Positions 1 to 3,938 of a DNA stretch of 43,590 nt are shown in pieces. The position numbers and the translations under genes are program-made. This DNA is from an uncultured Coriobacteriaceae bacterium (GTDB lineage Bacteria; Actinomycetota; Coriobacteriia; Coriobacteriales; CADBOM01): contig CADBOM010000195.1 of the NCBI GenBank assembly GCA_902796325.1, positions 1 to 43,590 of the forward strand, given 5' to 3'. The notes under the pieces are model-generated. The model was not told the origin of the DNA, searched no databases, and saw only the letters and a program-made list of their open reading frames with translations. How positions within the stretch are numbered: the first letter of the stretch is position 1; the number at the start of each line of letters is the position of its first letter.

Positions 1-368
1 CCGCATCTGCTCAGGGCAGACATGTAGTTGGCAATATCCTTGCGGTCGATTCCGTCAACACTGCGTACGCCGCCTTCGTAAACATAGGCGAGATATCTTC
101 TGACATCTCTCAGATAAGCTTCCAAGGTGTTGTCCGATGCGCCCTTCTCAAGCAGCAGGTATGCCGAATATTCGGAAAAGGCTTCTTCGAATTCCCTGGG
201 CACCTCCCCATCCAGATACTTGGCATCTGCGTTGTTCTGCAGGATATTGTTCTGGCTGCCTTTGTGTCCTTTGCGTCCGCGACCCCTCCCTGGATGCAGG
301 TTTTGAGAGGCGGACGCCATACTCTCGCCGATGGGTGGTTTCTCGTTTCTTTCCGAATCCGTTGTCAT
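1..368 (-). CDS. xerD: Tyrosine recombinase XerC/XerD, N-terminal part (cut by window edge)
   Basis: Site-specific tyrosine recombinase of the kind that resolves chromosome dimers at dif with a Xer partner. Only about 122 N-terminal residues are in the window; the catalytic domain lies beyond base 1. The translation has a ~50-residue hydrophilic, basic leader (GRGRKGHKG), then a typical Xer SAM-like core-binding domain containing FSEYSAYLLLEKGASDNTLEA and YLRDVRRYLAYVYEGG, ending near NYMSALSRC. The start is ATG at 368, preceded by AAGGAGG about 9 nt upstream. Its ATG overlaps the TGA of the upstream DUF3866 gene (ATGA), so the two are probably translationally coupled. XerC and XerD cannot be told apart from the N terminus; xerD is favoured from gene content seen in other actinobacteria. 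The basic leader is longer than usual for the family. Confidence 0.85.
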   Translation of the reverse strand, partial: MTTDSERNEKPPIGESMASASQNLHPGRGRGRKGHKGSQNNILQNNADAKYLDGEVPREFEEAFSEYSAYLLLEKGASDNTLEAYLRDVRRYLAYVYEGGVRSVDGIDRKDIANYMSALSRC

Positions 369-1735
369 AAGGCCCTGCCTCCTTGCCGTCTGTAACTTGC
401 TATCATCTTCGCCATGCCTATGCCGGAGCAATACGCGCTCCAGAAGAACTCCGGATCCTGTTCGAAGGTCCTTCCCATGGTCTTGATTTCTATGCCTCTG
501 GTATCTATCGGGTTACCATCCGGGTTTCCGTAAACCGCGTTGGGATCGATCGAATCGTCATCAATCTGATTGTCGTTGGCCCAACTTGTCTCAGACTGAC
601 TGGCTTCGATCGCATCGCTGGCATTGCTGATATCGGCCGGATTCTCTTGAGGGCACTCCTCAATGCCGATGTGCAAGCTGTTCGGCCTTGCCAGCACCAT
701 CATCTTCACGTCGTGCTTGCGAATTATCCCGGATTCTTCCAGCTGTTTGCCAACCAGCTCCATCTGGTCTTGGTCCATCGTATTCGGGATGAAGATGGTC
801 GCCTTTGCGAGCGCGAGCTTTCCCATGGCGGTTGCAAAATGGTGGCTAACCCCGTAGTGCCTTTCGCGTTTGTCGGCAAACGAGATTCGCGCAACAGCAA
901 CCGGGTTTGCCCCCAATGCCGCTGCGGCGTTTACGGCCTCTGCCTGCGCCACTCCGCCGTTGCCGAGTGCCGTGCCGGTTCCAACGATTCCCGGGCCCAT
1001 GGAAACTATCACGGCATCGGCGTCGAGAACGCACTTGCATGCTTGCAGTGCCGAATGCAGCGTGACCGCCTCCAGGTTTCCACCCATTGCCTGCCCGCAG
1101 GTGATCGTGAGGTTCACCAAGCCTTTATCCACTGCGGATGTGGCCAGCTTGGAAAACGGCAGCATGAGAGATGCCTGGTCGGTCATCACATACACGATCT
1201 TGGCATCGGACATCTCGCGTCTTATTCCTGCGGCAACGAGAGGGAACTGACTGTGCAGCCCGCAGCATGCAACCGGAAGTCCATCCAGGTTCTGTGACTT
1301 CTCCATGGAATCATGAAATGGAGATTCCGGATCTTCGATGCAGTTGACGTTGGTCTGCATCGGGGTATATCTGAGCTTCATGATGTGCCCGCGGAACTGC
1401 TGGGGGAGAAAGCCCTTTGAGGAATCGCACCGTTCATCTTCGGTTGCGCGCGGCACCTCCGAGCTTGCAACGTTTGTTACGCTTGCGGTGCTTGCGGTAA
1501 AACGCTCGATTACGAAATCGTAGCCGCCCGTGCCAAGCGAGAGGTTTGCAGCTGTGGTGTTAACCAATACCACGTCGCCCACGCTGCATGCCCCAGAAAG
1601 ATCCTTGTAGCACATGGCTTTGCGAACTCGGGCTTCTGCTTCTTTAGCGTCAGTGGTGCCGGTTTCGATATCGAGAACCTGAATCTTCTGGTTCTCGTAG
1701 ATGATTGCCCGTACTGTGGCAGTTTCTTTGTCCAT
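365..1735 (-). CDS. DUF3866 family protein
   Basis: A 456-residue protein of the actinobacterial DUF3866 family; its biochemical function is unknown. Family-like segments include the N-terminal beta-rich part (GDVVLVNTTAANLSLGTGGY), the middle part (KLRYTPMQTNVNCIEDPESP, then GLHSQFPLVAAGI) and a Gly-rich stretch (GPGIVGTGTALGNGGVAQAE). I chose ATG at 1735 because a near-perfect Shine-Dalgarno, AAGGAGGTG, sits 3-8 nt upstream; the frame stays open further up but with no better site. The protein ends in ATGA overlap with the xerD-like gene, so they form one operon. No signal peptide or membrane segment is seen. A TTGACA at 1815-1820 (minus strand) could be a -35 element, but a good -10 at normal spacing is lacking. 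Confidence 0.85.
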   Translation of the reverse strand: MDKETATVRAIIYENQKIQVLDIETGTTDAKEAEARVRKAMCYKDLSGACSVGDVVLVNTTAANLSLGTGGYDFVIERFTASTASVTNVASSEVPRATEDERCDSSKGFLPQQFRGHIMKLRYTPMQTNVNCIEDPESPFHDSMEKSQNLDGLPVACCGLHSQFPLVAAGIRREMSDAKIVYVMTDQASLMLPFSKLATSAVDKGLVNLTITCGQAMGGNLEAVTLHSALQACKCVLDADAVIVSMGPGIVGTGTALGNGGVAQAEAVNAAAALGANPVAVARISFADKRERHYGVSHHFATAMGKLALAKATIFIPNTMDQDQMELVGKQLEESGIIRKHDVKMMVLARPNSLHIGIEECPQENPADISNASDAIEASQSETSWANDNQIDDDSIDPNAVYGNPDGNPIDTRGIEIKTMGRTFEQDPEFFWSAYCSGIGMAKMIASYRRQGGRAL

Positions 1736-1980: not shown

Positions 1981-2052
1981 TCCCATTTTGTCCCATCTTC
2001 CCACTGTGTCCCATGTTTCCCACCTTGACCCACAGAACATGAATTCATCCCA
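1981..2052 (-). promoter_or_regulatory. Array of seven TGGGN elements, candidate MraZ-binding array
   Basis: Read on the minus strand, TGGGA or TGGGT occurs at (plus coordinates) 1981-1985, 1991-1995, 1999-2003, 2009-2013, 2018-2022, 2028-2032 and 2048-2052. Steps are 10, 8, 10, 9, 10 and 20 bp, so the elements lie on roughly one helix face. E. coli MraZ binds TGGGN direct repeats separated by 5 nt (10-bp period) at the mra promoter, and mraZ is the next gene here. The array points toward the divergent DUF3866-xerD operon and lies about 245-320 bp upstream of its start codon. Binding is inferred. Confidence 0.5.
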
Positions 2053-2411: not shown

Positions 2412-2457
2412 TGGGATGAAGTGTTTGTAAAAAGTCATGCTGTGGGATAAAATCCCA
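2412..2457 (+). promoter_or_regulatory. Promoter-proximal TGGGA boxes and palindrome (candidate mraZ autoregulation site)
   Basis: TGGGA occurs at 2412-2416 and 2443-2447, 31 bp (three helical turns) apart, and inverted at 2453-2457. The last two form the 15-bp dyad TGGGATAAAATCCCA (2443-2457). The first box lies just upstream of the -35; the dyad covers the -10. MraZ is known to repress its own operon through TGGGN repeats, so this fits autoregulation. Confidence 0.5.
2425..2453 (+). promoter_or_regulatory. Sigma70-type promoter for mraZ-rsmH
   Basis: TTGTAA (2425-2430), 17-nt spacer, TAAAAT (2448-2453). The -10 lies inside the TGGGA dyad. Predicted start near 2460, giving a leader of about 50 nt before mraZ. 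Confidence 0.55.
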
Positions 2458-2510: not shown

Positions 2511-2933
2511 ATGGCCTATCTGTTCGGTGAATACGAGCACACGATGGATGACAAGGGCCGCGTTTCCATGCCTGCTAGGTTTCGCAAGGAGCTTCCGAGA
2601 ACCGTGGTTCTGGCTCCAGGTCCAAATGGCCAGGTGAATGTGTTCTCAGAGGAAGGGTTTGTGGAGTGGCTCCACTCTCTATTCGAGGCGGACGGCGGTT
2701 ACAGCTCCATAAACAAGAAGCACGTGAGAGCACGCCAGTACTACAACGAGAAGGCTTGCAGCGTGGACATCGATAGCGCGGGCAGGATCAACGTTCCGGC
2801 TTCGCTTCGCGAATACGCTGGCTTGAGCAAGACCGTCCTTCTCAATGGCGATGAGGACCACGTTTGCATTTGGGACAAGGATCGTTGGAACGAGTACATT
2901 GGCGATTTCGATCCGTCCGAGATGTTCTCGTAA
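2511..2933 (+). CDS. mraZ: Transcriptional regulator MraZ
   Basis: A 140-residue AbrB-like DNA-binding protein, first gene of the dcw cluster and repressor of that cluster in E. coli. Both internal repeats are visible: FGEYEHTMDDKGRVSMPARF near the N terminus and CSVDIDSAGRINVPASLREY in the second half, each with the family signature DxxGRxxxP. Length is typical (about 140-150). Start ATG at 2511 follows a purine-rich stretch (GAGAGGGGGCAAGAGG). Its likely targets, TGGGN boxes, occur at its promoter and as an upstream array. rsmH starts 27 nt after the stop. Confidence 0.97.
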   Translation: MAYLFGEYEHTMDDKGRVSMPARFRKELPRTVVLAPGPNGQVNVFSEEGFVEWLHSLFEADGGYSSINKKHVRARQYYNEKACSVDIDSAGRINVPASLREYAGLSKTVLLNGDEDHVCIWDKDRWNEYIGDFDPSEMFS

Positions 2934-2960
2934 CCCGGCCACGTCTTGGGATTTGAGTTC

Positions 2961-3938
2961 ATGATGCGCGACCTGAAAACCGAATATCGGCACATTCCAG
3001 TGATGGCGAACGAGGTGATCGAGAACCTCGGGCTAAAACCGTCATCGATCTTCGTGGACTGCACCCTGGGTGGTGCGGGACATTCGATCCTTGCGGCCGA
3101 GAAAATTGCCCAGAGCGGAACTCTCGTTGGAATAGACGAGGACCCAATGGCAATCAAGGCGGCATCGCAAAGGTTGGAGGAGAAGTTCCCCGGCATGGAC
3201 TTCAGGCCCATGCAGGGAGATTTCGTGGACCTCGACCAGATTTTGGTCAGGGCCCAGGTTCCGGGGATCGATGCGATTCTGTTCGACCTTGGTCTTAGCT
3301 CGCCGCAGATCGACTTTCCCGAGAGGGGCTTCTCGTACAGAGTGGACGCCCCCTTAGACATGCGGAGAAATTCGGGTAAACACACCAAAACAGCAGCAGA
3401 GGTCATAGCAACAACAAACGAAACAGACCTCGCCCGAATTATCCGAGAGTACGGGGAAGAAAAATGGGCCAACCGCATTGCCCACTTCATTGTGGAGAGG
3501 CGTGCGGAGCAGCCGATCGAGACCACGATGCAGCTTGTGGATGTTATCAAAGCGGCGATTCCGGCTTCGGCTAGGAGATCGGGCGGCCATCCGGCCAAGC
3601 GAACATTCCAAGCGCTGAGGATCGAGGTCAACCATGAGCTGGACGAGCTGGGCACCGCGTTGGACGCTGCCATCAGGTGGCTTAACCCTGGCGGCAGGAT
3701 ATGCGTGATCAGCTACCACTCGCTGGAAGACAGAATCGTGAAGGAGACCTTCGCCAACATGGCAAAGGGCTGCATATGCCCGCCGGACATTCCGGTTTGC
3801 GTTTGCGGCAACAAGCCGAAGGTGAAGATCGTCACGAGGAAGCCGATAACGCCGAGCGACGCCGAGTTGGAGGAAAATCCAAGGTCGCGGAGCGCGAAGC
3901 TCCGAGTGGCCCAGAAGCTCGACACAACCAGGGACTGA
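2961..3938 (+). CDS. rsmH: 16S rRNA (cytosine-1402-N4)-methyltransferase RsmH (MraW)
   Basis: SAM-dependent methyltransferase that modifies the ribosomal P-site base C1402. About 325 residues, normal length. The N terminus EYRHIPVMANEVIENLGLKP leads into SAM motif I, FVDCTLGGAGHS. Further family blocks are FDLGLSSPQID, the FSYRVDAPLDMRR segment, GGHPAKRTFQALRIEVNHEL and ISYHSLEDRIVK. A Cys-rich stretch (CICPPDIPVCVCGNKPK) near the C terminus fits the family. I favour ATG 2961 (or 2964). TTG 2946 is in frame but has no better ribosome site. Second gene after mraZ, as in nearly all dcw clusters. Confidence 0.97.
   Translation: MMRDLKTEYRHIPVMANEVIENLGLKPSSIFVDCTLGGAGHSILAAEKIAQSGTLVGIDEDPMAIKAASQRLEEKFPGMDFRPMQGDFVDLDQILVRAQVPGIDAILFDLGLSSPQIDFPERGFSYRVDAPLDMRRNSGKHTKTAAEVIATTNETDLARIIREYGEEKWANRIAHFIVERRAEQPIETTMQLVDVIKAAIPASARRSGGHPAKRTFQALRIEVNHELDELGTALDAAIRWLNPGGRICVISYHSLEDRIVKETFANMAKGCICPPDIPVCVCGNKPKVKIVTRKPITPSDAELEENPRSRSAKLRVAQKLDTTRD

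Follow-up and report, generated by a model that had tools for sequence, protein, structure and literature searches.

A predicted distal, promoterless MraZ operator upstream of mraZ and its probable pairing with the promoter boxes in Coriobacteriales

MraZ is ring-shaped and belongs to the most conserved bacterial regulators, and its operator in E. coli reportedly lies at Pmra, as Eraso et al. are said to have described in 2014. The locus studied here lies in a window of 43,590 nucleotides, the whole stretch of DNA analysed, from contig CADBOM010000195.1 of an uncultured Coriobacteriaceae bacterium. Upstream of its mraZ gene, which together with rsmH opens the dcw cluster, are TGGG boxes at the promoter and, further away, an array of seven TGGG boxes oriented toward a divergent DUF3866-xerD block, with 775 bp between DUF3866 and mraZ. 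This arrangement raises the question of which genes the distant array serves. The features concerned are the following.

3 to 368, minus strand: xerD, 5' part only, running off the contig end (Phage_int_SAM_1)
365 to 1735, minus strand: divergent DUF3866 gene, its start being placed at the ATG at 1735 behind GGAGG (Pfam PF12982)
1890 to 1960: imperfect 13/26-bp tandem repeat (CGCGCAATCTGGT, 5.5 copies) adjoining the TGGG array, with no second genome copy by BLAST
1981 to 2052, minus strand: predicted distal MraZ-box array of seven TGGG boxes
2049-2052, 2029-2032, 2019-2022, 2010-2013, 2000-2003, 1992-1995 and 1982-1985, minus strand: the single TGGG boxes, read on the plus strand as CCCA starting at 1982, 1992, 2000, 2010, 2019, 2029 and 2049
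2273 to 2288, no strand assigned: NrdR-like box TCCCTATATATTGTAT, matching at 13/16 positions with the core CWAYATRTWG complete, conserved order-wide
2412 to 2415, plus strand: promoter-side TGGG box 1
2425 to 2453, plus strand: mraZ promoter TTGTAA-17-TAAAAT, whose spacer in relatives is filled by two boxes (AGTGGGATGAAGTGGGA)
2443 to 2446, plus strand: promoter-side TGGG box 2, abutting the -10 hexamer
2454 to 2457, minus strand: single reversed box beside the -10
2511 to 2933, plus strand: mraZ (Pfam PF02381)
2961 to 3938, plus strand: rsmH/mraW, the next dcw gene (Pfam PF01795, scanned as 2946-3938)

The earlier note had described seven TGGGN elements upstream of mraZ, mostly 10 bp apart. 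All seven boxes are present, 462-529 bp from the mraZ start (2511), and six of them read TGGGA; "mostly" was slightly generous, since the gaps are, in order, 10, 8, 10, 9, 10 and 20 bp, and 10 bp thus accounts for three of the six. Elsewhere in the window the number of same-strand TGGG boxes per 71 bp is at most four, 12 Mb-strands of Markov sequence never gave more than five per 71 bp, and overlapping three-box matches are found at this sole place in the whole 2.4-Mb genome, within which BLAST of positions 1885-2065 revealed no second copy. A strict search of the window for TGGGN6TGGGN6TGGG gave no match because the spacing alternates between 8 and 10 bp, and the boxes are less regular than those of relatives, with spacing of 8-10 bp and weak flanks. 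This irregular spacing, the adjoining 13-bp tandem repeat and the fact that the array is not conserved in the nearest relative, G002, could be explained if the array were a degenerate and functionless minisatellite like its neighbour, but a reversed box upstream of mraZ is conserved order- and class-wide, which makes such an origin improbable.

A promoter scan of positions 1700-2530 identified one promoter, that of mraZ at 2425-2453, and no promoter toward DUF3866. The promoter-side array is degenerate in the window, as the sequence 10 bp before the box at 2443 is TCAT, not TGGG. With its TGGG boxes at 2412 and 2443 lying 31 bp apart and a reversed box at 2454, this proximal array is weaker than its counterparts in relatives.

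Since the genus is represented by one genome and the family by three, one of which is cut at a contig end, the comparison was widened to the order, in which 377 of 399 genomes contained MraZ and 129 mraZ upstream regions from nine families were taken; this search superseded an earlier contig scan with MraZ that had given four distant loci. TGGG pairs were counted by spacing in noncoding DNA with expected counts obtained from first-order Markov sequences, and boxes, spacing, orientation, conservation, the absence of distal promoter signals, genome-wide specificity and the NrdR box were all observed in the sequences themselves. Reverse TGGG pairs exactly 10 bp apart number 63 in the 129 regions as compared to 1.8 expected (100 simulations gave 6 at most), and forward pairs 91 as compared to 3.5. 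The reverse pairs form a sharp peak at this distance, with 6 pairs at 9 bp and 7 at 11 bp in the same regions, and when all 256 tetramers are ranked by 10-bp self-pairing TGGG (91) comes first and CCCA (63) third, the second-ranked GTGG overlapping the TGGG box. Counted per genus, which lessens shared ancestry among unevenly sampled relatives but leaves some of it, the strict reverse pair occurs in 24 of 68 genera versus 1.9 expected (no more than 6 in any of 200 simulations). At the level of loci it is present in just 41 of 129, and in G002 10-bp pairs are missing in both orientations. In genera g46 and g43 (loci L061, L063 and L129) the orientations are swapped, such that the forward pair is distal and the reverse pair nearer mraZ.

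Alignment on the pairs yielded a unit common to forward and reverse arrays, G-TGGG-R-N-R-A-A-G-TGGG-R; the strict 16-bp unit is absent from the window even when one mismatch is allowed. In forward arrays TTG precedes the first box by 6-8 bases and TAnAAT directly follows the second, and hence the two boxes fill the spacer of the mraZ promoter. In reverse arrays no -35 or -10 could be recognised, the information at those columns being at most about 0.35 bit, and these arrays are predicted operators without a promoter. Exact matches to GTGGGRNRAAGTGGGR in 30 whole genomes number 28, all of them upstream of mraZ and often as an inverted pair of one forward and one reverse site, with no other exact target in these genomes; the reversed array therefore belongs to mraZ.

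The GGG tracts could also act as a G-quadruplex, with loops of 5-7 nt. Canonical motifs (G3N1-7 four times) are indeed present at 1982-2031 on the minus strand, and a G-quadruplex has been reported in the S. aureus mraZ promoter (PMC11796246), but just 12 of the 41 relatives with a reverse pair contain a canonical motif. Such a structure needs neither an exact spacing of 10, nor a T before and an R after GGG, nor a conserved AAG. Protein boxes are the better fit to both the exact 10-bp period and the bases around the tracts, and a G-quadruplex as the functional element is highly improbable.

The orientation of the boxes toward DUF3866, at 246-317 bp upstream of that gene, had led to the suggestion that MraZ controls the divergent DUF3866-xerD operon, and an array longer than in most relatives could reflect co-option for this purpose. 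However, the gene order in relatives points elsewhere. xerD lies upstream of and codirectional with mraZ in 84 relatives and is divergent in three, and three genomes of family f9 have DUF3866, xerD and mraZ in this order and all codirectional. At the reverse-pair loci a codirectional xerD ending upstream of the array is found in 31 of 41 and a divergent xerD in none (0/41), and on these counts the array is no promoter element of xerD or DUF3866. The window itself counts among the ten reverse-pair loci for which the examined stretch gave no xerD match, DUF3866 being interposed. Given the codirectional order in relatives, the divergent placement of DUF3866-xerD in the window is explained as a local rearrangement and the array can be accounted for without it. 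No DUF3866-facing promoter overlapping or abutting the array was recognised, and the reverse arrays of relatives likewise come without promoter signals. Together with the gene order this leaves control of DUF3866-xerD by MraZ unlikely, and the suggestion was not supported.

Forward pairs are enriched at reverse-pair loci of the order (32/41, Fisher p=0.011), and in Actinomycetes a forward pair is present at 9 of 11 such loci (p=0.0007). The distance between forward and reverse pairs is usually 125-220 bp, clustering near 160 bp, and is 159-161 bp in five genera (g87, g63, g79, g61 and g60), although the intervening DNA can hardly be aligned, if at all (z-scores mostly below 3, highest 3.9). 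In the window the two arrays are separated by 363-430 bp, which is longer than typical, and no helical phasing was observed over 26 distances (p=0.23-0.67). A single multimeric protein that bridged the two pairs would require such clustering of the distance and such enrichment of the forward pair. As most relatives have the reverse array placed between xerD and mraZ, MraZ bound to it could instead serve as a roadblock insulating dcw from upstream xerD read-through. However, nothing upstream reads toward mraZ in the window, where the array is nevertheless long, and a roadblock would not account for the distance of 159-161 bp seen in five genera, so that it is quite improbable. A distal operator bridged to the promoter operator probably describes the array better.

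The DNA between the arrays contains a further conserved element. Across the order, mraZ upstream regions contain the palindrome ACACWAYATRTWGTGT, in most cases at 160-300 bp ahead of the gene start. It corresponds to the NrdR-box palindrome acaCwAtATaTwGtgt, with at least 13 of 16 positions matched in 67 of 129 loci as compared to about one in simulations. Relative to the palindrome, reverse boxes are concentrated 20-80 bp on its upstream side and forward boxes 40-120 bp on its downstream side, and promoter-like hexamers in its neighbourhood have no consistent position. The exact 14-bp core occurs in one to four copies per genome in nine genomes and is absent from a tenth. Of the copies located elsewhere than at mraZ, those examined stand before nrdD, nrdR, dnaE and topA; the one at nrdD is found in the own genome as well, and this genome encodes NrdR. 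In relatives the palindrome adjoins dnaE (L142) and overlaps the 5' end of a topoisomerase I reading frame (L139). An exact NrdR-type palindrome is also located about 500 bp upstream of a gene for a PcsB-like peptidoglycan hydrolase (own genome, C153 near 4530; L146, motif 1501, gene 2013), a possible second division or cell-wall member of the NrdR regulon. In the known NrdR regulon the tandem boxes follow each other at 31-32 bp (PMC2892513), and the order resembles it both in the same palindrome before nrdD and nrdR and in the commonest offsets of a second box, +31 and -31 bp (12 and 9 versus 1.2 per offset), although no tandem second box is recognisable in the window. The box of the order differs in lying upstream of mraZ and about 100-150 bp before the promoter, not over it. 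The conservation upstream of mraZ of a palindrome common to nrd genes predicts NrdR control of dcw.

Beyond the order, 69 upstream regions of Actinomycetes contain 15 reverse 10-bp pairs as compared to 0.7 expected, and hence the reversed distal operator, as predicted from such pairs, seems widespread in Actinomycetota. None of these 69 regions has an NrdR box above 11/16, and the placement of this predicted box upstream of mraZ seems peculiar to the window's order. Actinomycetes loci L195 and L196, whose mraZ promoters appear Mycobacterium-like by eye, also have reversed distal boxes.

The E. coli K-12 record, used as positive control, has three forward boxes at -43, -33 and -23 and resembles the order in carrying TGGG boxes at 10-bp intervals immediately before mraZ. 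However, no reversed box is present upstream of E. coli K-12 mraZ, whereas the order combines forward boxes in the -35/-10 spacer with a reversed array further upstream. In the two-operator repression loops of lac and gal a main operator at the promoter cooperates with a distant auxiliary one through a multivalent repressor, and the proposed MraZ layout of a promoter operator with a distant operator is alike. It differs in that the MraZ arrays consist of short direct boxes and are inverted relative to each other, and looping is here a prediction. The MraZ operator of Burkholderia cenocepacia, for which its authors performed EMSA, consists of 7-nt repeats with 3-nt spacers near the promoter (PMC7761207) and shares the 10-bp period, but it is one operator downstream of the -10, whereas the order has two arrays. 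The literature searched, which excluded the E. coli study of MraZ and many papers under subscription, contains no description of a distal reversed MraZ operator and no paper with both "NrdR box" and mraZ.

The window thus presents TGGG-type boxes with a 10-bp period, located upstream of mraZ, and belongs to an order in which a distant second operator is conserved as a pair with the first. The earlier note had suggested a second MraZ target or a bridging loop, and a predicted distal reverse operator paired with the promoter boxes is indeed conserved well beyond this genome. From this layout we infer binding of MraZ and NrdR, formation of a loop and repression as the outcome. With a probability of roughly 0.6, the array is a distal, promoterless MraZ operator that serves the mraZ/dcw promoter in cis and is looped to the promoter boxes, tightening autorepression. 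The ring-shaped MraZ would occupy the promoter-spacer boxes and the reversed upstream boxes simultaneously, and such bridging would form a DNA loop leading to tighter autorepression. In Coriobacteriales the NrdR box would lie inside the predicted loop, and dNTP status may hence modulate the mraZ promoter. A broader and more tentative proposal, held at somewhat less than even odds, is that the dcw operon of the order constitutes a MraZ-NrdR switch, in which inverted MraZ operators loop around an NrdR site and the dATP/ATP sensor of dNTP synthesis gates the division genes, with the two-operator MraZ loop common to many Actinomycetota. A conserved inverted second operator would provide a direct reason for the multivalent MraZ ring, namely the bridging of two DNA sites, and the NrdR site in the mraZ upstream region would link dNTP supply to division-gene expression.
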